Assembly: GCF_900115055.1 (NCBI RefSeq)
Contig: NZ_FOVD01000001.1
Span: forward strand, 620,001-684,000
Reading direction: 5' to 3'
Source of the DNA: Chryseobacterium oleae
GTDB taxonomy: Bacteria; Bacteroidota; Bacteroidia; Flavobacteriales; Weeksellaceae
DNA: 64,000 nucleotides
Shown here: positions 1-10,763 of the stretch, in pieces
How the letters are laid out: every line of letters starts with the position of its first letter
How positions within the stretch are numbered: position 1 is the stretch's first letter
Notes under the pieces: generated by a model
Database searches by the model: none
Told to the model about the DNA's origin: nothing
The model's input: the letters and a program-made list of their open reading frames with translations, nothing else
Made by a program: the position numbers and the translations under genes

Positions 1-3000
1 GCAGATGCATTGGCCATCAGGGTGAGCTGGTAAGAATCTTTTGTAGCTAATACTTTATTCAATGCATTTTTATAAGGTTCTTCCAATTCATTTTTTAAAC
101 CGACTTTTGACAGAACATAGATCACATACATATTTCTCGACCAGGCATAATCGGAGAAAGGACTCTTCATTTCAAAACTTTTCCTCACTTCAAAAGTTCC
201 GTTCTGATTTTTCCTGGATAAAATGAAAGAGGTCAGATTCTGGATCAGCTTAGGATCAATATCCACATATTTCTTAAGATCCCTGAATTCCAGCAAGGCA
301 AAAGCTGAAACCGAAGCATCAGATTCCGAAGCATTGAAATATCCGAAACCTCCATCCTTGTTTTTATAGCTCAGCATTTTCTGGTAGCCTTTTCTCATAT
401 TTCTTATCACAAAACTTTCCGTTTCAGGCGTAATCTTTTTAATTGATTTTAAATAATTCAGAATAAAAATATTTGGATACACCGTAGATGAGAGCTGTTC
501 GAAACATCCGTGAGGCTCGCGTTTCAATCTTTCCATATCATCAAACAACTGAAGGGCCGTATTTTGATAGATATAATACGAAGATGAGAAACTACCGTTG
601 ATGTATTCCGGAATAGTGAGCTTTATGTTTTCAGAGGTATTGCTGATGACAGAATAATGGTGCGGAAATCCTTTTTCTTCAACATTAAACGGAAAAATAG
701 CCGCTTCCCTGAAATCTCCCGACTGTATTGAAAACTGAATATTCGAACTTACCACATCATCGGTCTGCATAGTTACAAACAGCCTTCCCGATTCCAATGG
801 TTTCAGGGTAATGATACTATCAAATTTTATTAATTTAACGCTATTCGGAACAATGACATCCATGACCATTTTCCGGGTTTCTGCAGAGTTGTTTTTAATA
901 ACTACCGGAATCGTCATCTGATCCGCCCTTGTCAGGTACTGCGGAATTTTAGCATCAATGGAGATGAGGCTTTGAGCCGCGTATACCGTTTCATCTCTTC
1001 CTATCTGCCCTTTTCCCGAAATGCCTTCGGTGATGATTCTGAAAGCAGTATTGGCATCGGAATTATAAAATTCGACCTGTGCTTTTCCTTTTTTATCGGT
1101 TTCTAATACAGGATTCCAGTAGATGGTTTCCCTGTAGTCAAAACGGTATGAAGTATTGGTACTCTGATAGACAGGATACTGAAAATTTCTGCTGTAAGAA
1201 TAGGTAACCAGGCTGTCATTCGGAACTGCCATCACTGCATAATATGATTTTGGAGTAACATCAATTCTCAGCTGTGAACGTGAGTTTTTGGCAGAATTAA
1301 TAAGGATAACCCCATTCACTCCCAAACTCCCGTAAACAGATGTGGCGGCAGCATCTTTCAAAACCGTTATACTGTTGATATCACTGGGATTGATGGCTGT
1401 TTTAAAATTTTCTACCGGTACACCATCAACCACATACAATGGAGTTTTGTTTGACACGGAGGCCATTCCTCTTATCAGAACATTGCTTCCGGGCTGTCCA
1501 CTGGCTCTGTTGACCATAACTCCGGAGACTTTTCCTGTTAATAAAGAAGCAACATCCGGATTCTGCAATCCTTCTTCCTTTGAAATAATTGTTCCAGATG
1601 TTAACCCATTTTTTTTGATGCTATAAGCCATTACTACGACCTCTTCAATTCTATCGGACTTTATAGTGTCACTCTTCATATTGCCCTTGCTTCCGGATGA
1701 TCTTTTTGTACGACTTTCCGGAACATATTTTGTCTTTTCCTGCTCCACAACCTTTTTTTCAGGATCTTGCCGGAGTTCTATCTTTCCTGTTTCTTTTACA
1801 GCTTCTTTAACGATTTCCTGTACATTGACGTTATTCAGTGACTTTTTTGCCAGAGGATTTACCGGAAGCCTGTAGGATAAAATCCTGATCTTCACTTCCT
1901 GTTTAGGCTGAAAAGATTTAGCAACAAGTTTGTAGGAATTATCTTTTTTAAGATCCGAGAAATAGAATGTTCCTTCTTCGGAAGTCGTCTGTTTAAGAGT
2001 TTTGTATCCTTCTATGAGGTAAACGTCGGCTTTGACAGGTTTCCCATTCTCATCTTCCACAATCCCATAAATAGGGTTCTTTTTTTCAGGAAGGTATTTA
2101 TATTTTTGATTTGTAATGACTTCAGGAACCATCTCAAAATACCGGTAGCCGTTGGTAAGCATGAGAAGATCAAGACTTTTGGCTGCCTTTTCTTCTTTTT
2201 TATCAAAATAAAATTGTGGCCTTTCCACTTTTCCTTTCAATTCAGAATCCATCAGAAGCCAGGAAAGGATATTATTCTGTTTATCATCCGCATATGTCCA
2301 GAGTTTATCATCTACAACGCTCATAGCCAGATTGGCAGGAACAGGAATTCCGTTTTCATCCGTGGTTTCAATGTCCAGTACTACCTTTTCCCTTGGAAGA
2401 TATTGTTGTTTTACAGGCTTGATTTTCACATTCATCTGTCTGTTTTCATTGGCAAAAACAATACGTTCTGCAAGGGGGATTTCTCCCTCAAAAACAGTAA
2501 ATCGACAAATACCTGCCGGAAGTTCTTTTTCAGAAATTTCAAACTGATTGAAACCTTTCTGTAATGAAAATGTCTGATTATACATCTCTTTTTCGCGGAA
2601 GCTTCCTTTTAAAACAATTGTTCTTGCCCCTGTAGATATGATCTTTGCGTAGATCTTCCGGTTTTCTTTACGCACATTAAAAACCACACCTTCATCTTTA
2701 GCCTCAGGAAGCGGATATGTCTGGGAAATATTTTCAGGTTTCAGGACTTTTGCGTAATACGTTTCTCCTTTTTTAGGAGTAAAGAGAAAGCTTTCCATTC
2801 CAAAATTATAGGCTGAATTTTCTGCTACTTTTTGGTTGTTCTGATTAAAAATTTCCAAAACGGCATCGACAGGTTTTTCATATTCATCTACAATTTTAAA
2901 TGCTACATTCTGCTGAATTCCATTGATAAAAGAACCTCCTTCCGGCATGAATTTCACATCAAGATGATTCAGAACAATTGGAATATTTCTGGAAACAGAT

Positions 3001-3689
3001 TCTGTAAAACCATCAAAATTCACTTTAATATTCAGTAAAGCATCGGAAGATTTCAAAACCTTCGGAAGATTGAATTTAAGCTGTTTTTTACCTTCTTTAT
3101 CGGTAAGCAGTTTTCCTTCAGAAATGATTTCCCCATTGTGCATCACCGTATAATCTGCTTCATAGAAAGGAATCACCTGATTGCTCAGACTTCGCATTGA
3201 AAAATCTGCCAAAACCTCATCACCCGGGCCATATCCTTTTTTAGGAAACTCAAGCTTCATCAGAATTCTGGGTGAAACCACTTTCTGTAAAGTGATTTCT
3301 TTTTCAAAAGCATTTTTCCCTTCCTCATTCTGCATCCAGTTCGTAAAAGCCCTGATTTTGTAAATTCCGCCTTTCATCTCATCACTGAAATAGAAATATC
3401 CTTCTGCGTAGCCTTTTTCAATTTCGTATTTGGCTTTTTTAATAACACTTCCGCTTGGGTCAATCAGTTCAAAGTTCACCACTCTGCTCTGATCTGCCGG
3501 AAGATTATTTTCAGCTTTCACGATATAAATTTTAAAGTACATTTCCTCACCGGGCTTATAAAAAACATGGCTGGTTTGTATATACGTTTTTTCTTTTTCG
3601 AAATCTTTAAACTGATTCTGCGCTTTCAAACCAACATTTGAAAACCCTAAAGCGAACAGTAAAATATATTTTGTTATCCTGAAATCCAT
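1..3689 (-). CDS. Alpha-2-macroglobulin family protein with TonB plug domain and thioester (3' end outside window)
   Basis: The reading frame opens at ATG 3687-3689 and stays open to the left edge, giving at least 1229 codons. A signal peptide is visible (MDFRITKYILLFALGFSNVG, cleavage near LKAQ). MG-type beta domains follow, beginning with YIQTSHVFYKPGEEMYFKIY. A carboxypeptidase-regulatory-like domain (PIYGIVEDENGKPVKADVYL) sits at about residues 535-565. A SusC-type plug (LTGKVSGVMV, IRGMAS, YVVDGVPV, VLKDAAATSVYG, NGVILI) lies at about 690-800, introduced by the TonB-box-like EEVVVM. The A2M part then has the thioester motif GCFEQ with Cys at about 1062. A2M proteins trap proteases or bind targets covalently; bacterial versions are usually periplasmic or envelope-anchored. 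The fusion with a plug is unusual. The gene starts 3 bases after the barrel gene stops, so the two are almost certainly co-translated. Confidence 0.9.
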   Translation of the reverse strand, partial: MDFRITKYILLFALGFSNVGLKAQNQFKDFEKEKTYIQTSHVFYKPGEEMYFKIYIVKAENNLPADQSRVVNFELIDPSGSVIKKAKYEIEKGYAEGYFYFSDEMKGGIYKIRAFTNWMQNEEGKNAFEKEITLQKVVSPRILMKLEFPKKGYGPGDEVLADFSMRSLSNQVIPFYEADYTVMHNGEIISEGKLLTDKEGKKQLKFNLPKVLKSSDALLNIKVNFDGFTESVSRNIPIVLNHLDVKFMPEGGSFINGIQQNVAFKIVDEYEKPVDAVLEIFNQNNQKVAENSAYNFGMESFLFTPKKGETYYAKVLKPENISQTYPLPEAKDEGVVFNVRKENRKIYAKIISTGARTIVLKGSFREKEMYNQTFSLQKGFNQFEISEKELPAGICRFTVFEGEIPLAERIVFANENRQMNVKIKPVKQQYLPREKVVLDIETTDENGIPVPANLAMSVVDDKLWTYADDKQNNILSWLLMDSELKGKVERPQFYFDKKEEKAAKSLDLLMLTNGYRYFEMVPEVITNQKYKYLPEKKNPIYGIVEDENGKPVKADVYLIEGYKTLKQTTSEEGTFYFSDLKKDNSYKLVAKSFQPKQEVKIRILSYRLPVNPLAKKSLNNVNVQEIVKEAVKETGKIELRQDPEKKVVEQEKTKYVPESRTKRSSGSKGNMKSDTIKSDRIEEVVVMAYSIKKNGLTSGTIISKEEGLQNPDVASLLTGKVSGVMVNRASGQPGSNVLIRGMASVSNKTPLYVVDGVPVENFKTAINPSDINSITVLKDAAATSVYGSLGVNGVILINSAKNSRSQLRIDVTPKSYYAVMAVPNDSLVTYSYSRNFQYPVYQSTNTSYRFDYRETIYWNPVLETDKKGKAQVEFYNSDANTAFRIITEGISGKGQIGRDETVYAAQSLISIDAKIPQYLTRADQMTIPVVIKNNSAETRKMVMDVIVPNSVKLIKFDSIITLKPLESGRLFVTMQTDDVVSSNIQFSIQSGDFREAAIFPFNVEEKGFPHHYSVISNTSENIKLTIPEYINGSFSSSYYIYQNTALQLFDDMERLKREPHGCFEQLSSTVYPNIFILNYLKSIKKITPETESFVIRNMRKGYQKMLSYKNKDGGFGYFNASESDASVSAFALLEFRDLKKYVDIDPKLIQNLTSFILSRKNQNGTFEVRKSFEMKSPFSDYAWSRNMYVIYVLSKVGLKNELEEPYKNALNKVLATKDSYQLTLMANAS

Positions 3690-3692
3690 ACC

Positions 3693-6464
3693 TTAAAATT
3701 GAAATGAAACCATACATCCAAAAGTCTTGTAAGAAGGGAGATTGAAGAAATCAAGCCCTTTCCCGCTGTCCAGATCGTAAAAATTCTGGTTGGGATCTGC
3801 TCCCTGATTGGCCTGCCAGAGAAGAATATTATTGACGTAGAACGTAATTCCCAAGCCTCTTTTAAATCGGCCAACATCAAATTTTCCTGTCAGTGAAATA
3901 GTGTTGATCCTTACATAATCTGCCTTCTGCACATAATCTTCTGCCACACCAAGATAACCGTACCTTGTCCATCTGTTCTGTGAAACATTCTGTGCCGGAT
4001 TGTAAAAATCAACGGGAATCTGGTTAGGGCTTCCGTTTGAATCTACTCCCTGAAACACATAGTTTTTGATATTTCTTTCATCTCCTGAATTTTGAGAACG
4101 TCCGTAGTAATCCAGTACCGCTTTGGTTCCGTTCCAGATCTGACCGCCTTTTTTCCATTCCCAGTTGATATCCAGAGAGAACATTTTATAGTTGATGGTA
4201 TGATTGAATTTAACCACAAAATCAGGGGTAGGGTCAGCAATAATTTTCAATCCGTCTGCTTTTTTCGGGTATCCGAATTCATCAATAATCAGCTCTCCGG
4301 CAGCATTTCTTTCAAAATAACTTCCCATCACGGCTCCAAAAACCTGCCCTCCGGATAAAGTCTTATACACATCACTGAATCCTGCAACCGAAAGATTGTT
4401 ATATCCTGCATTTACCCTGTCTACTACGTCTTTGTATTTAAAAAAGGAAACCTTATTGCTCATTTTGAAATCTGTTCCCAAATACATATTGTCATAGATG
4501 AAATTCGCTTCATAACCGCTGTAGGTATGGTCTGCCAGATTCTTCAGCTGCAATTGGTTATTGTCAAAAACCGGAAAAATATCATTGATCACTTTTCGAT
4601 TAAAATATTCGGCTTCCAAACTCATGTTGTAAGTAGCCTTCAATCTAAAGCCTGCTTTTCCTTCCTTGCTGTTGATATTGGAAAGGTTTCGGAATGTCTG
4701 AGCTTCTAAAACCGGAAAATACTGGTGTGCATTCTGAGCTTTCAACAAGGTTGTGGCATAAGAAGCATAAGATTTCGTGATCTCCGGCTCTGAGCTCATT
4801 TCCGTGTAGGCGCCCAGGATTTTAAAATCTACGCTGTTCCAGTTAAAAATATTCTGAAATGTCAGATAGGCATTCACTTTCGGAAGCCAGTAGGTATTTT
4901 CAGCGGATGTGTTTGATATATAGAAAGCATTCCCAGCATTAAATCCTGCGCTGATATCGCTGCGGTAGCTGGAATAATCATATTTATAGTTCAAGATATA
5001 ATCCTGCGATGTCCTTTGATATACATAATCTGTTTTTGTCAGGCTATTGTAAACTTCAGATTTTCTGTCATTCAGGAGAAAATTCAGGCTCACAACACTT
5101 CTCCTGTCGCTTTCACCGAAAGTGTAGGATCCTGAAACATTAGAACTGTAAAGTTTATTCTGCTGGCTGCGTTCACTGTACAAACCGTTTGTAAAGCCGG
5201 AAGCAGATGGATATCGATAATCAACATTCATGAAACGGTCGTTTTCGTAAGATTGACTGATCATCAGTTTAAAATCAGAAAAGTTTCTTTCCAGCCCAAA
5301 GCTGAACTGTCTCCTGCGATCGCGGTAGTTGTATTTATTTTCCTGCTCCAGTAAAAAGTAAGGATTGTCTGCAGACTGGCCATAGCTTCTCTGTAAGCCA
5401 TTTGTCAGAAGTGCATTCTGCGCATTTGAAAAAGAAACGGGCGTAAGCAGAGCATTTTGATAGACCCTGTTGAAAAGTCCGGTTCTGTTGGAATTTACCG
5501 CTTTATTTTCATCATAATTAAATCCCAGATTGACAGAAAATTTCAGAATTTCAGAACTCAGCTTTGTTTTAAATGTATTGAAAATATTGTACTGATCTAC
5601 AAAATACATCTGGTCTTTCTGCTGCCCCAAGTCTAAGGAAAGTCTGAGTTGTTCACTGTAATACCCTTTGTTCAGGGAAGTATTCAGCCTCAGCTGATTG
5701 TTGTGGCTGAAAACCGTTTTGAAAATATCGTTGTTATAAGCTTTGGCCGGAGAGATTCCGGTGCCAACAGGGATCAGTCTTCCGTTCCAGTCGTATTCAT
5801 ATGGGTGATGATCAAATCCCAATGAAGAAATATCCGGCCCGAAACTGAACATTTCACCTGTTTCAGGTCCCTGCCATTCCAACAGACCGTTTTGGGAACG
5901 CCCCTGAACATACCGGTTTTGAGTATGAGGAATAGAATTTCTTGTTTTGACGTCAAAAGAGGTTGTAAAACTTCCGCTAAAATCAATAAATTTATTGGGT
6001 TGCTCTCTTAAATAGTAGGTATTATCAGTAACCTTTTTGATCTTTCGCACTGCAGAAAAGTTATACGCTGACTTTCCTATTACATATTCTTTGGAATCTT
6101 CAACGCTGAATTCATCTTTGAGTTCTTTTGTTACTAAACTGTCGTAGGCCCTGCTTCTGGTTGTCCAGACACTTGCTTTCTCCGTTCTGCTTTCTAAAAT
6201 ACTCTTAAGCTCACGAAGTCCGCGGGCTACAAGCTTGCTTTTCCCATCATTCCAGATCAGGGTGTCATTTTCTTTGGCGGCAATAATGGCAAAACCCTTT
6301 CCATCGGTAAGTTCATATATTCCGTTATTCTTATTATAAACCTTAAGGAAATTCTGAGGTTTATCTTTTTTATTTAAAAATATTCCTGAATAGTACAACT
6401 GAGAGTTTTGCGAAAACAGAAAGTTCGCTGCAAAAGGCAACAACACCAAATAAATTTTCTTCAT
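3693..6464 (-). CDS. SusC/RagA-like outer-membrane beta-barrel protein lacking a plug domain
   Basis: The protein is 923 aa from ATG 6462-6464, chosen because it begins a clean signal peptide (MKKIYLVLLPFAANFLFSQ); a longer frame adds 21 residues without one. After the signal comes a short carboxypeptidase-regulatory-like segment (YYSGIFLNKKDKPQNFLKVY), then about 150 residues of unrecognised sequence where SusC proteins carry their plug. From about residue 230 the sequence shows SusC barrel features: NNDIFKTVFSHNNQLRLNTS, alternating aromatic strands, and a C-terminus of SusC type (ILLWQANQGADPNQNFYDLD, ending in Phe). The core plug signatures (VVDGVP, SIEVLKDA, YGSRGANGVI) are absent. Its neighbours on both sides carry plugs, so it may work with them. 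The barrel fold is well supported; the substrate is unknown. Confidence 0.88.
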   Translation of the reverse strand: MKKIYLVLLPFAANFLFSQNSQLYYSGIFLNKKDKPQNFLKVYNKNNGIYELTDGKGFAIIAAKENDTLIWNDGKSKLVARGLRELKSILESRTEKASVWTTRSRAYDSLVTKELKDEFSVEDSKEYVIGKSAYNFSAVRKIKKVTDNTYYLREQPNKFIDFSGSFTTSFDVKTRNSIPHTQNRYVQGRSQNGLLEWQGPETGEMFSFGPDISSLGFDHHPYEYDWNGRLIPVGTGISPAKAYNNDIFKTVFSHNNQLRLNTSLNKGYYSEQLRLSLDLGQQKDQMYFVDQYNIFNTFKTKLSSEILKFSVNLGFNYDENKAVNSNRTGLFNRVYQNALLTPVSFSNAQNALLTNGLQRSYGQSADNPYFLLEQENKYNYRDRRRQFSFGLERNFSDFKLMISQSYENDRFMNVDYRYPSASGFTNGLYSERSQQNKLYSSNVSGSYTFGESDRRSVVSLNFLLNDRKSEVYNSLTKTDYVYQRTSQDYILNYKYDYSSYRSDISAGFNAGNAFYISNTSAENTYWLPKVNAYLTFQNIFNWNSVDFKILGAYTEMSSEPEITKSYASYATTLLKAQNAHQYFPVLEAQTFRNLSNINSKEGKAGFRLKATYNMSLEAEYFNRKVINDIFPVFDNNQLQLKNLADHTYSGYEANFIYDNMYLGTDFKMSNKVSFFKYKDVVDRVNAGYNNLSVAGFSDVYKTLSGGQVFGAVMGSYFERNAAGELIIDEFGYPKKADGLKIIADPTPDFVVKFNHTINYKMFSLDINWEWKKGGQIWNGTKAVLDYYGRSQNSGDERNIKNYVFQGVDSNGSPNQIPVDFYNPAQNVSQNRWTRYGYLGVAEDYVQKADYVRINTISLTGKFDVGRFKRGLGITFYVNNILLWQANQGADPNQNFYDLDSGKGLDFFNLPSYKTFGCMVSFQF

Positions 6465-6531
6465 CGTTATTAATATTTCTAAAAATAGAGAAAAAAAAGA
6501 AATTCCCGAAGAAATTTCTTTTTTCAATACG

Positions 6532-8811
6532 TTAATTTTTGATCACCTTAAAGGTTTCCCACCGATCTCCGGATCTTAATCTCAACAGATAAATACTCTG
6601 AGGATAGGAAGTAATGTCGATTGTGTTTTTACCTTCTTCAAGTTTCTCTTTTCTCATGATGATCTTTCCTGCCAGATCATAAACGAACAGTTCATCTATG
6701 GCATATCTGGATTTTATATTGATGATTCCTTTGGTAGGATTCGGGAAAATCACCGTTTTGGATTCCTGTTGATTATTAACTTCTGTTTCAAGCTTTTTGT
6801 TCAGATGATCATTAGAAATTCCGTCGCTGCATTCCGGAAGTGTTGCTCTCTGAAGAATCAGTCTTAATAACAGTGCATTCAGCTTTTCTACTTCATAGGA
6901 ATCAATGGTAGGTTTTATATGGTCATTACCAATGCCACTATCGTTGGTCAGAAAAGTATAGGTTCCGTTCGTCAGCAGGGCAAATGTTCTCATCAGATAT
7001 TCCGTCTGTTTGTCCGTATCACTGGCTGCCAAAGGAATTACTGTAATCCCTTTTTTGGAGGCCAGTTTTATTTTCTCATAAAGTTTACTGATATTCTCCT
7101 CTGAATGGTGTGGAGGTGCATCAAGAATCAAAAACATGATTTTCGCTGAATTTTCATTGCTCCATTTCAGTTCGTCAATGGAAACCTGCATAGCTTCTAC
7201 CACGGCTTCAGGCGTATCTCCGCCTCCCCCTGCATTTTGTTTTTTAATGAAACTGACTAGTTCTTCGGCTTTATCAGAAAAATCAAATTTTCTGGTCACA
7301 TATTCGTCACCATGGTCTCTGTAAAAGACGGATCCGTATCGCACCGTTGTATTTTTAAGATTGCTTTCCACCTTTTTTAAGACATCAAGAAGTTCAGACT
7401 GCAGATACGAAATTTCGTCTCCCATAGAGCCTGTAGCATCCACTACGAAGGCGAGATCCAGATTTCGTTTGGTAACACAGGCTCTGTCCATCATCACCAG
7501 GTTCTGTCCGTTTTTAAAATCTCTGATATTCGTACTGATGATCTGTCCTGAGCCGTCCGCTAAATAATATTTTCCAAAAACAGGATTACTGCCTTTCATA
7601 GGCTCTATCCACAATTCTGCATTTCCTAAATTATTGGAAACCGCTTCCCAGATGACCTCTTTTTTATCGTTCAACAGTTTTACTTTTTCTCCGATTACCG
7701 GTTTTCTGTTTTTATTGACTAACTGCACGGAAACCCTTCTGTCAGGAAAGAACTTCCATATGTTTTTATATTCGTCAAGCGTAGGAACTGCAATATCTTT
7801 CCAATAATCCCATTTTGAGAAATCATTCACTTCGCCGGCAGTTAGTAGTCCTGCTTTCGGAAGATCCTTATCTTCTTCTTTAATGGCTTCTTCCGCTTTT
7901 TTTGAGGCTTCTTCTTTAAGTTTTTCCAGTTCGGATTTCGAGAGGCCACGGGTGGTCACCAAAATGACCCCATTGCGGGCCTTACTGCCATATAAAGCCG
8001 TAGCTTCCAATCCTTTTAAGACTTTTATTTCTTTAATATTGCTGGGATCCAATGAATTCAGCACTTCTGATTCTTCCCCAAATACCACTCCATCTACCAC
8101 AAATAATGCTTTATCAACGCTCAAACTTTTAGCCCCTCTTATCTTTATTTCTGAATCTTTTCCTGATAAAACAGATACCCCTGCTACTTTACCACTTAAA
8201 GAAGCCAGTACCGATGGTCTTCCGGCTCCTTTATCTATAGAAGCAACCATCGTGCTTGATGAAGTTACTGAACTCACCTTTTTTTTCAATCCCATAGAAC
8301 CAGTCATCACGACTTCTTCTATCCTTGTTTCTCTTAAAGTATCTCTTTTTCCTTGTCCGGAATATGTATCTTCCTCTGGCGGTTCAGGGAGTTCGCAAGA
8401 AATGGTTCTTGGGTTGTCTAAACCTATGGGCGCTACGGGTTCATAAGCAAGTACGGGTTGCACAGGTTTTAGTTCTAGTTCTTTTTCTATATTGGCTTTT
8501 ACCGTACTGTCTACTGTCTGGATATTATTCTTTTCAGAACGATTTTCAGTCCTGTTTTCTACGATTACAGGTTTCGGGTTTTCAGTAGTTTTATCTTTAC
8601 TGATAAAATAAAATGCCCCCAATCCAATGATTAAACTTGCCGCGATTCCATAAGGAAACCATACTGGCAGTATTCTTTTTTTCTCTTCTTTTTTGTCTAA
8701 TTTTTCTTCAACTTTTGCCCAGACTTTATCAAAACCCGGAAAAACGGTCGGTTCTTCTGAAAGCTTAGAAGCATCATTGAATTTTTTATCTATGTCGTGA
8801 TTGTTTTCCAT
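6532..8811 (-). CDS. Membrane-anchored plug / von Willebrand A / T9SS sorting-domain protein, anti-sigma-like
   Basis: This 759-aa protein has an unusual domain order. Residues 1-46 are charged and cytoplasm-like. One membrane segment lies at about 47-71 (WFPYGIAASLIIGLGAFYFI). A Pro/Glu-rich linker leads to the TonB-box-like RIEEVVM at about 163. A SusC-type plug follows at 180-290 (LSGKVAGVSV, IKIRGAKSL, FVVDGVVF, IKVLKGLEATALYGSKARNG). An Ig-like stretch comes next, then a VWA domain at about 450-640 with MIDAS residues DATGS from Asp458. The C-terminus (690-759) is a type A T9SS sorting domain (VIFPNPTKGIINIKS, VYDLAGK). Lying 10 bases after an ECF sigma gene, the N-terminal part with its membrane segment resembles an anti-sigma factor; that role is inference. 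A cytoplasmic N-terminus and a T9SS signal in one protein are hard to reconcile. Confidence 0.87.
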   Translation of the reverse strand: MENNHDIDKKFNDASKLSEEPTVFPGFDKVWAKVEEKLDKKEEKKRILPVWFPYGIAASLIIGLGAFYFISKDKTTENPKPVIVENRTENRSEKNNIQTVDSTVKANIEKELELKPVQPVLAYEPVAPIGLDNPRTISCELPEPPEEDTYSGQGKRDTLRETRIEEVVMTGSMGLKKKVSSVTSSSTMVASIDKGAGRPSVLASLSGKVAGVSVLSGKDSEIKIRGAKSLSVDKALFVVDGVVFGEESEVLNSLDPSNIKEIKVLKGLEATALYGSKARNGVILVTTRGLSKSELEKLKEEASKKAEEAIKEEDKDLPKAGLLTAGEVNDFSKWDYWKDIAVPTLDEYKNIWKFFPDRRVSVQLVNKNRKPVIGEKVKLLNDKKEVIWEAVSNNLGNAELWIEPMKGSNPVFGKYYLADGSGQIISTNIRDFKNGQNLVMMDRACVTKRNLDLAFVVDATGSMGDEISYLQSELLDVLKKVESNLKNTTVRYGSVFYRDHGDEYVTRKFDFSDKAEELVSFIKKQNAGGGGDTPEAVVEAMQVSIDELKWSNENSAKIMFLILDAPPHHSEENISKLYEKIKLASKKGITVIPLAASDTDKQTEYLMRTFALLTNGTYTFLTNDSGIGNDHIKPTIDSYEVEKLNALLLRLILQRATLPECSDGISNDHLNKKLETEVNNQQESKTVIFPNPTKGIINIKSRYAIDELFVYDLAGKIIMRKEKLEEGKNTIDITSYPQSIYLLRLRSGDRWETFKVIKN

Positions 8812-8821
8812 TGCCTAAAAT

Positions 8822-9340
8822 TTAAATGTTCTGATTAACCAAAAGTTCCTGTAGTTTTTTCCTTGCAAAATTGAGCTGAGACTTGGAAGTCCCCTCGCTT
8901 ATAGAAAGCATGGATGCAATTTCCTTATGCGGATATCCTTCAATAGCAAACAGGTTGAATATGGCTCTGCAGCCCTCGGGAAGGAAATTCAGCAGACTCA
9001 GGATATCTTTCTCAAACGAAATGCTTTCAGATAAGGTTCCGGAGGTTTCTACAAAACTGTCGTCCATAGAAACGAACTGTGCTTTGGTAGCTCTCAATTT
9101 CTGAAGGCATTCATTCACAGCAATTTTTCTGGCCCAACCTTCAAAAGTGTCCACATTCTGGAGTTGGCCGATCTTCGTGAATATTTTGTAGAACGTATCG
9201 GCCAATACTTCTTCAATATCTTCATCATTTTTCAGGTAGCGTCTGCAGACTGAGTACAGCTTGCCCGCCATTTTCTCGTAAACCTTCCGCTGTGCGCTGC
9301 GGCTGTTACGTTGGCATTCTATTAGTAATTCTCTTTCCAT
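8822..9340 (-). CDS. ECF RNA polymerase sigma factor
   Basis: The 172-aa protein has the two regions of an ECF sigma-70 factor. Region 2 includes QRKVYEKMAGKLYSVCRRYL and NDEDIEEVLADTFYKIFTKI, with the DAEDlvQ-like NDEDIEEVL. Region 4 is an HTH (LPEGCRAIFNLFAIEGYPHK, then EIASMLSISEGTSKSQL). It should direct RNA polymerase to a small regulon. It is the first gene of the cluster running from 9340 to the left edge, and its stop lies 10 bases before the start of the membrane-anchored plug/VWA protein, the usual place for an anti-sigma factor. A cell-surface signalling role like FecI is possible, but no FecR-type gene is present. Confidence 0.93.
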   Translation of the reverse strand: MERELLIECQRNSRSAQRKVYEKMAGKLYSVCRRYLKNDEDIEEVLADTFYKIFTKIGQLQNVDTFEGWARKIAVNECLQKLRATKAQFVSMDDSFVETSGTLSESISFEKDILSLLNFLPEGCRAIFNLFAIEGYPHKEIASMLSISEGTSKSQLNFARKKLQELLVNQNI

Positions 9341-9560
9341 AGTCAGGCTTTATACTGTTATAGATGCATCAACTTTGAGATAGGTTGGAAACATTTTAAA
9401 TCTTTTTTAGTAAAAAGGCAAAATAGTGAATAAACTGATACACAAACACCTCCGTTTGATTTATATTTTTTCAAGTTTTTTCACTTTCAAATTTAACTTT
9501 TCCCCTTGTAACAAATCTTTAATAGGAACGACTATTCATATAAATAATCTTTTTATAGTA

Positions 9561-10763
9561 ATGAAAAATACCAAAATTGCCTCATTACTTTTTGTTTTGT
9601 CTGCAGGAAGTATGATGTTTGCCCAAGATGACTTGATCAACAAATTAAAGAACAATCAATCACAAAATGCTAATTTTCAGTTCACCGCGTTAAAAGACGT
9701 AGGAGCTACTTCAGTAAAAAACCAGGGATCATCCGGAACCTGCTGGAGCTATTCAGGGAATTCTTTCCTTGAATCTGAAATGCAGAGGATGGGTAAAAAA
9801 CCTGTAGATCTGGCTGAAATTTTCACGGCAAGAAATTCTTACCACGATAAAGCTAAATTATTTGTCCTTAACGGCGGAGCGATCAGCTGGGGTGACGGAG
9901 GCGAACTGCACGATGTTATTAATATGTATAAAAAATACGGTGCGGTACCTCAGGATGTGTATACAGGATTAAAATCCGGACAGAGCCTTAATAACTTTAA
10001 GGAAATGCAGGGGAAATTAAAAACAGTTCTGGACAGTCTTGTTCAGGCAAGTTCAAAAGGAAAGCTTTCGGATAACTGGATGGATTCCGTAGATTCAATT
10101 CTGGATGAATATCTTGGAAAAGTGCCCGCTAATTTTACCTACGAAGGAAAAAATTATACACCTAAAACATTCGCTAAGGAAGTTGTAGGAATCAATCCTG
10201 AAGATTATATCGAAATTTCTTCATACAAAGATTACCCGTACTACCAGAAATTCGTAGTTCCGATTCCTGATAACTGGAGCCATGATTCTGACTGGAATGT
10301 TCCGATGAAAGATTTAACAGCAATCATTGACAATGCTGTAAACAAAGGATATTCCGTAGGATGGGCTACAGACGTTTCTGAGCCTTATTTCTCATACAAA
10401 AACGGAGTTGCTTATGTTCCTGATGTGGACCTGGATGGGATCACTGCTGAAAACAAGCAAACGCTGTTCACTGAGCCTAAGAAAGATAAAACTATTACCG
10501 AAGATATGCGTCAGAAAGCGCTTAACAACCTTTCTACCACAGATGATCACGGTATGCATATCGTAGGATTGGCGAAAGATCAGACCGGAAAAGAATATTA
10601 TATGGTTAAAAACTCATGGGGTGTAACCAATGATTTCGAGGGTTATCTTTATGTAACCAGACCTTATGTAGAATACAAATCAACTGCGATCCTTATCCAC
10701 AAGAATGCGGTTCCAAAAAGTATTCTTAAGCAGCTGAAGCCTACTAAAAATATTGGTTTATAA
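9561..10763 (+). CDS. Secreted papain-like (C1, bleomycin hydrolase type) cysteine peptidase
   Basis: I chose ATG 9561 because it starts a signal peptide (MKNTKIASLLFVLSAGSMMF, AQ cleavage); an upstream in-frame start at 9426 adds 45 residues of non-signal-like sequence. The 400-aa product has the C1 catalytic set: NQGSSGTCWSYSG with Cys61, DDHGMHIVGL with His333, and VKNSWG with Asn351. The order Cys-His-Asn and the long insertion before the His fit the bleomycin hydrolase/PepC branch, although those enzymes are normally cytosolic and this one appears exported. It is transcribed away from the sigma-factor cluster and ends in a strong terminator. Two double-glycine leader peptides lie just downstream, but it is not a C39 leader peptidase. 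Confidence 0.9.
   Translation: MKNTKIASLLFVLSAGSMMFAQDDLINKLKNNQSQNANFQFTALKDVGATSVKNQGSSGTCWSYSGNSFLESEMQRMGKKPVDLAEIFTARNSYHDKAKLFVLNGGAISWGDGGELHDVINMYKKYGAVPQDVYTGLKSGQSLNNFKEMQGKLKTVLDSLVQASSKGKLSDNWMDSVDSILDEYLGKVPANFTYEGKNYTPKTFAKEVVGINPEDYIEISSYKDYPYYQKFVVPIPDNWSHDSDWNVPMKDLTAIIDNAVNKGYSVGWATDVSEPYFSYKNGVAYVPDVDLDGITAENKQTLFTEPKKDKTITEDMRQKALNNLSTTDDHGMHIVGLAKDQTGKEYYMVKNSWGVTNDFEGYLYVTRPYVEYKSTAILIHKNAVPKSILKQLKPTKNIGL

Follow-up and report, generated by a model that had tools for sequence, protein, structure and literature searches.

The DNA analysed here is a 64,000-nucleotide window of the Chryseobacterium oleae genome (positions 620,001-684,000 of contig NZ_FOVD01000001.1, assembly GCF_900115055.1), and our subject is a group of four minus-strand genes that encode, in the order given by an open-reading-frame (ORF) reading of the window, an extracytoplasmic function (ECF) sigma factor, a protein with a SusC-type plug domain (gene 2), a SusC-like barrel that carries no plug, and an alpha-2-macroglobulin (A2M)-like protein with a second SusC-type plug. 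TonB-dependent receptors are understood as a single chain of barrel and plug. The gaps between the four genes are 10, 67, and 3 bases, as a sequence-only reading of this DNA had reported, provided that the barrel gene starts with the ATG at 6464; the mechanical ORF of the barrel begins earlier, with a TTG at 6527. The A2M gene crosses the window edge, and a reading of the genome gives its product a length of 1522 amino acids (aa). The sequence-only reading had proposed a receptor split over three proteins under one ECF sigma factor. As a single unit the four genes do not hold: barrel and A2M occur without sigma factor and gene 2, and vice versa. We conclude that the four genes are two separable modules, module A (barrel and A2M) and module B (sigma factor and gene 2), joined in Chryseobacterium and close relatives. 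The features of the locus, in window coordinates, are:

9361..9391, minus strand: promoter-like motif TTTCCAACC-N15-GCATCTA, upstream of the sigma gene
8822..9340, minus strand: ECF sigma factor, 172 aa (Sigma70_r2, E 3e-11; Sigma70_r4_2, E 2e-14)
6532..8811, minus strand: gene 2, 759 aa, with plug, VWA domain, and type A sorting tail of the type IX secretion system (T9SS); probable membrane anti-sigma factor
8602..8811, minus strand: gene 2 residues 1-70, cytoplasmic segment and transmembrane helix, putative sigma-binding part
8305..8319, minus strand: TonB-box-like EEVVM of gene 2, residues 165-169, with similar boxes in relatives
7966..8223, minus strand: SusC-type plug of gene 2, residues 197-282 (PF07715, E 6.6e-11; TIGR04056 positions 76-205)
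6970..7458, minus strand: VWA domain of gene 2, residues 452-614, a module swapped among loci
6544..6750, minus strand: T9SS type A sorting domain of gene 2, residues 688-756 (PF18962, E 1.7e-11; TIGR04183, 42 bits, cut-off 23)
3693..6464, minus strand: plugless SusC-like barrel, 923 aa, with an N-terminal domain ahead of the barrel (TIGR04056 positions 214-981 only)
1..3689, minus strand: A2M-like protein, 1522 aa, about 880 bases of the gene running past the window edge
1629..1646, minus strand: TonB-box-like EEVVVM of the A2M, residues 682-687
1308..1568, minus strand: SusC-type plug insert of the A2M, residues 708-794, in the bait-region position (PF07715, E 9e-13)
495..509, minus strand: thioester motif GCFEQ of the A2M, residues 1061-1065

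A barrel without a plug beside an A2M with a plug

The sequence-only reading had described two neighbours of the barrel as carrying SusC-type plugs with TonB-box-like EEVV(V)M sequences, and the barrel as lacking a plug. Pfam and NCBIfam matches establish both plugs, with EEVVVM in the A2M and EEVVM in gene 2. The match of the barrel to TIGR04056 (OMP_RagA_SusC) spans positions 214-981 with 62.8 bits, compared with a full-length family cut-off of 368, and the two plugs cover positions 75-255 (A2M) and 76-205 (gene 2) of the same profile. No Pfam match to a plug domain was found in the window barrel, for which the only relevant match is that to TIGR04056 from after the plug. A hidden Markov model (HMM) derived from the A2M plug was run with filters off against 84 homologous barrel ORFs, 78 with a length of 780 aa or more and 6 fragments. 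It detected a plug at E < 10 in none of them but did detect one in five of five conventional SusC control frames (16-44 bits; frames cut by locus ends). This search at full sensitivity, together with the conventional controls, rules out that a plug in the barrel was overlooked by profiles. We conclude that the barrel lacks a plug.

The barrel is SusC-like in fold: an AlphaFold model of a homologue (locus L162) matches SusC BT1763 (5t4y_C) with Z 25.1 and 647 aligned residues at a root-mean-square deviation (rmsd) of 4.0. The sequence of the barrel gave no match in the PDB at E 0.001. The barrel contains no EEVV string, and its profile match begins after the box region, a test that a degenerate TonB box would escape; a signalling (STN) domain gave no Pfam match in the barrel at E up to 1. 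Barrels of the Chitinophaga type are 799-901 aa long, and their profile alignments start no earlier than position 96, which indicates that most of the Chryseobacterium-type N-terminal domain is missing from them. No SusD was noticed by eye among recurrent neighbours of the barrel, no SusD profile having been run. The barrel has a weak BamP match (E 0.0019; 17.6 bits vs. a cut-off of 230). A SusC-like component of the β-barrel assembly machinery was considered as an explanation, and nothing matching it appears in the accessible part of PMC12611786.

In the A2M, the MG2, bait-region, A2M, and TED domains score above cut-off in Pfam and NCBIfam, and bMG10 scores below it. The plug follows the bait-region domain and precedes MG7, and so occupies the bait-region position. 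A profile of the A2M aligns, over positions 665-821, with positions 101-258 of SusC BT1763 (E 3e-35), and the same profile also matches eukaryotic A2Ms (E 1.5e-37). An AlphaFold model of residues 30-1229 has as its fold matches A2M, C3, C5, and Escherichia coli A2M, with best Z about 20-22, and its macroglobulin (MG) domains before and after the plug are confident. Among 125 non-identical barrel/A2M pairs, the plug core residues G719, G723, R740, G741, L751, G787, and G793 and the CFEQ thioester are kept in 125 of 125 A2Ms, and V684 of the TonB box is kept in 123. The protein resembles alpha-2-macroglobulins (E. coli YfhM, human A2M, C3, CD109) in its MG domains, its CxEQ thioester domain, and its fold, and differs from them in that a SusC plug on a long linker fills the bait-region position. 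The locus resembles the SusC/RagA TonB-dependent transporters (SusCD, RagAB) in barrel fold and in having a plug with a TonB box, and differs from them in that plug and TonB box sit in other proteins.

Barrel and plug-bearing A2M are paired across genomes. In the best 80 named loci of at least 455 confirmed candidates, the A2M lies directly behind the barrel on the same strand in 80 of 80, and its plug is seen in 78, the exceptions being one broken gene (L201) and one gene cut by a contig end (L224); genera among these 80 include Chryseobacterium, Cloacibacterium, Epilithonimonas, Flavobacterium, Aquimarina, Tenacibaculum, and Chitinophaga. The pair is also present in four of four further loci from other families of the order. 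Among 320 genomes of the family, a set that overlaps the named loci so that the counts must not be summed, 96 carry barrel and A2M, 222 carry neither, and two are exceptions: in G170 only a fragment is matched for the A2M, from base 2 of its contig onwards, and in G155 a 109-residue barrel remnant stands without an A2M, sigma factor and gene 2 being kept (L127). These counts derive from a barrel query that matched 100 of the 320 genomes at E 1e-20, of which four were dropped before counting (G155, for its remnant, and G112, G175, and G306, whose match was limited to the C-terminal third of conventional-size frames), and from an A2M profile that matched 97 at E 1e-60. In a phylum sample of 392 genomes, full-length barrel and full-length plug-A2M are confined to the same four; one further genome (G757) has a full-length A2M with no plug match and no adjoining plugless barrel.

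The same conservation rules out, for practical purposes, that the split is a pseudogene or an assembly artefact of an ordinary SusC. A few individual loci are indeed broken in at least one gene (for example L063, L071, L073, L104, L117, L119, and L121), as such an artefact would have it; however, barrel and A2M frames are intact in the great majority of loci, in several families and in complete chromosomes, the plug and thioester motifs are invariant, and we assign the artefact a probability close to nil. A comparison of 20 regions, with a barrel HMM that misses most conventional SusCs, gave no support for descent of plug and barrel from one surviving SusC, the nearest conventional barrel by barrel score (L242) being different from the nearest by plug score. 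Separately, a 244-aa frame in the C. oleae genome (L254:236-967, G000:C5) comprises a plug and the apparent start of a SusC barrel, and is possibly a broken SusC gene.

Sigma factor, gene 2, and promoter-like motif

Sigma factor, gene 2, barrel, and A2M are all present in 90 of 97 fetched family loci, with single genes broken in some, and the sigma ORF is found in 91. Because the full set recurs in 90 of these loci, the four-gene association is not due to chance. In 90 of the 97, gene 2 is followed on its own strand by module A, mostly after a short gap and in some cases after a 2-kb insert.

Gene 2 starts with a conserved cytoplasmic stretch followed by one hydrophobic helix, all within its first 70 residues, a feature that the sequence-only reading had missed, as it had missed the bait-region position of the A2M plug. 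This N-terminus is the best conserved part of the protein (mean major-residue frequency 0.82-0.84 vs. 0.53 for the plug, in 83 sequences). Gene 2 gave no match to known anti-sigma profiles; topology, operon, and conservation indicate that it is probably a membrane anti-sigma factor. In its predicted layout, module B is similar to the FecIRA/FpvA cell-surface signalling systems and their relatives (compare PMC9249621), which likewise have an ECF sigma factor, a membrane protein with cytoplasmic N-terminus and periplasmic part, and an outer-membrane receptor gene nearby; it differs from them in that their receptor contacts the anti-sigma factor through an N-terminal signalling domain, whereas here the anti-sigma candidate itself bears a plug.

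Three kinds of gene 2 are found. One has the plug alone (about 360 aa), a second combines it with a VWA domain and a T9SS tail, as in the window, and a third with a YfbK-type VWA domain; the type A sorting domain was not found in the YfbK-type gene 2 that was scanned (L165). The VWA modules of gene 2 recur, at the same locus, on separate lipoprotein-like proteins with thrombospondin type 3 repeats (the repeats by Pfam in L161). Such proteins stand after the A2M in L044, L102, L105, and L161 and between gene 2 and barrel in L064. Among 14 intact plug-only loci, a set from which the broken or cut L171 and L218 are excluded, 8 have one behind the A2M. In the distant genome G460 (L238:3410-12385), a sigma-like protein, a separate protein that is anti-sigma-like by eye, a mini-plug protein with two half-plug repeats, a barrel, and an A2M follow in succession, the arrangement to be expected of a split gene 2.

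By analogy with Myxococcus, in which secretion of PopC is reported to require the TonB-dependent transporter Oar (PMC6434023), the barrel might be an export pore for the neighbouring A2M or VWA proteins, with the plug as a handle. Neighbouring VWA proteins with T9SS tails or lipoprotein-like signals fit such a function, as does the A2M, the N-terminus of which is signal-peptide-like only, such that surface exposure would need a route. However, T9SS is the expected route for the tails, nothing in these data places the A2M on the surface, and we consider export improbable.

The sequence-only reading had also proposed that the receptor is coupled to transcription through the sigma factor. In outline this coupling stands: the ECF sigma factor is accompanied by a probable plug-bearing anti-sigma factor and by a promoter-like motif that is conserved. 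Of 88 regions ahead of sigma genes, 81 contain GTTTCCAACC-N15-GCATC exactly, 16-23 nt ahead of the start, and the other seven deviate, by eye, by one base each. In 1.47 Mb of loci, TTTCCAACC-N15-GCATC occurs 87 times, ten other spacings together occur once, and the reversed pattern does not occur. The C. oleae genome contains a single perfect site for the longer motif, at the sigma gene, and one two-mismatch site. Chance would be expected, roughly, to yield one site of the latter kind in this genome, but its placement is striking: it lies 16 nt ahead of the gene for a stand-alone plug protein of 243 aa. Weaker sites in the same genome number 15, and the reversed control has 7 in all. Across the genus, 115 of 118 genomes carry a site with no more than one mismatch, for a total of 233 sites vs. 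15 for the reversed control.

In 30 loci, one per genome, the motif lies ahead of sigma factor and gene 2 in 28, ahead of a plug protein of the 243-aa family in one (L299), and ahead of a VIT-type protein in one (L305, which by eye resembles that of L316). Twenty further sites, taken in listing order, lie ahead of plug-protein genes (10 sites, two of them neighbours in G016), sigma genes (2), VIT-type genes (3), and other or unclear genes (5), and those 10 stand-alone plug genes start 16-23 nt after the motif. We infer that the sigma factor of this operon uses the motif.

The 243-aa protein of C. oleae (G000:C7:420429-421160; L285:6429-7160) comprises a SusC plug, a cysteine-rich N-terminus (FCSVC), and a hydrophobic stretch, and its family bears the same kind of motif in several Chryseobacterium genomes. 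The VIT-type proteins behind the motif are those of L305, L316, L325, and L334 (G041, G015, G033, and G043), with the VIT domain confirmed by Pfam for L316 only. Two sites in G043 (L332 and L333) are followed by a long leader with no close start codon.

Proposed mechanism and plug docking

The explanation that we prefer, and the chances of which as a whole we judge to be evenly balanced, joins an A2M-corked barrel and trap to a plug-bearing anti-sigma factor that senses SusC-type barrels. In module A, the outer-membrane barrel, which is of SusC type and has lost its plug, would be closed from the periplasm by the plug of the neighbouring A2M, and this plug, on its long linker in the bait-region position, would double as the bait of the A2M. 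TonB would bind the TonB box of the A2M and pull the cork as in ordinary TonB-dependent receptors, and removal or cleavage of the cork would cause the thioester A2M to change shape and covalently catch incoming material; barrel and A2M would thus act together as a gated receptor into which a trap for proteases or proteins is built. The conformational change of eukaryotic A2Ms is triggered when the bait is cleaved and retracts from a channel (PMC9352918). In module B, the ECF sigma factor would be held by the membrane anti-sigma factor, gene 2, the periplasmic SusC-type plug of which would sense the state of SusC-type barrels, and the sigma factor, once freed, would transcribe its own operon, including module A where this lies behind gene 2, and, in many genomes, genes for stand-alone plug proteins and VIT-domain proteins.

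The sequence-only reading had suggested that both plugs are supplied to the barrel in trans. For the A2M the suggestion survives: co-occurrence, adjacency across two classes, and the conserved TonB box make a good case, though only an indirect one, and supply of the plug in trans by the A2M is the best explanation of them. For gene 2, which occurs without module A, the case for action in trans on this barrel is weak. A natural read-through of a plug-only gene 2 into the barrel (L162, with one in-frame stop) was modelled by AlphaFold with 79 alignment rows, and in this co-fold the gene 2 plug was not superposed on the canonical SusC plug site: all 50 listed aligned ranges begin past the plug, at model residue about 400, and some Foldseek alignments that cover more columns have an rmsd near 20. 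Confidence was mostly 86-98 by predicted local distance difference test (pLDDT) for barrel blocks and about 77-93 for the plug core. As far as a single prediction can, the placement tells against the plug of gene 2 as the cork of this barrel, and it is an outcome of the kind that the sequence-only reading had named as refuting its idea. The prediction is the best of five models, has a shallow plug alignment and a signal peptide inside the linker, and concerns the plug of gene 2 only.

Apart from this co-fold, four observations weigh against the preferred explanation. First, in the A2M model, residues 614-748 (linker, TonB box, and first part of the plug) have pLDDT < 50 and the remaining plug is near 50-58, such that the model places the plug on a long flexible stretch and does not fold it confidently alone. 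Second, mutual information between A2M plug and barrel shows no clear signal, with 13 in the top 300 overall vs. 24.7 expected (125 pairs, effective number 58); in the Chryseobacterium subset only, there are 40 vs. 24.7 expected, and the plug columns there are also the most variable. Third, half-A2Ms (about 820-930 aa) are widespread in Bacteroidota in the phylum scan. They resemble the full A2M in having MG domains, plug, and MG7 in the same order and differ in having no thioester domain, and in 15 loci the barrel HMM recognised no plugless barrel near them, although conventional SusCs at these loci escaped it as well. Among the unassigned frames there, the eight largest, which are those scanned, comprise one TolB-like protein, one penicillin-binding protein, two CcmF, one GH57-type protein, and three TonB-dependent receptors of the ordinary plug-bearing kind (L262, L270, and L271); none of the eight is a plugless barrel. 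Plugs outside barrels may therefore exist without a dedicated barrel. Fourth, 13 of 28 genomes read with sigma factor and gene 2 have no barrel and no A2M, and a gene 2 plug match is present in 10 of these 13 within the stretch read.

The co-fold, the half-A2Ms and copies of gene 2 that bear plugs with no plugless barrel recognised nearby, and the absence of overall plug-barrel covariation are what would be expected if the plugs of A2M and gene 2 were free periplasmic adaptors, for example binding TonB or proteins, the barrel being sealed by loops of its own or by its N-terminal domain, and adjacency reflecting no more than a shared pathway. This alternative leaves unexplained that the barrel has lost its plug exactly beside a full plug-A2M in 96 family genomes, and in the Chitinophaga-type barrels the N-terminal domain, a possible closure of the pore, is largely missing; we regard this alternative as unlikely.

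The genomes without module A bear on a further alternative, in which the plug of gene 2 samples conventional SusC or other TonB-dependent barrels as an open-pore sensor, and module A is a later passenger that need not use that plug. In addition to those genomes, this alternative accounts for the motif ahead of stand-alone plug genes where module A is absent (G016, G017, G025, G033, G034, G035, and G047). However, the position of module A behind gene 2 in most family loci suggests shared regulation at least, and we accord this alternative a substantial probability, somewhat short of even.

An extension of the preferred explanation, which we offer tentatively and hold to be possible and on balance rather doubtful, is an economy of portable SusC plugs. 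A sigma factor under a cork-bearing anti-sigma factor that senses open barrels would control a regulon that supplies separate corks, the A2M for the corkless barrel and stand-alone membrane corks for others, and corks could swap between barrel, trap, and sensor.

If the A2M plug closes the barrel, its move into an A2M, in a family spread over two classes, would provide a natural plug-in-trans receptor, bacterial A2Ms would gain an outer-membrane partner, and movement of the plug during transport would become testable with separately manipulable parts. If gene 2 and the stand-alone plug proteins behind the same motif function as proposed, they would constitute a new way to sense the state of outer-membrane receptors. 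In agreement with the sequence-only reading, which knew of no described system of this design, the literature searched, which did not include most subscription papers or any preprints, yielded no description of a SusC that lacks its plug or of a plug carried by an A2M or an anti-sigma factor.

The T9SS translocon SprA is likewise an outer-membrane pore closed by a separate plug protein, Plug. The SprA barrel and its Plug are not known to be related to the SusC barrel and plug or to depend on TonB. A strain without plug, in which the T9SS channel is opened, is mentioned in PMC12611786.

The half-A2M loci are L258, L260-L272, and L274, with tandem copies in L258 and L268. In the window, a C1-type peptidase gene (Peptidase_C1_2; 9426-10763, plus strand) lies divergent from the sigma gene; a similar neighbour is present in 37 of 46 loci, as is the case with other genes, and probably reflects general synteny.

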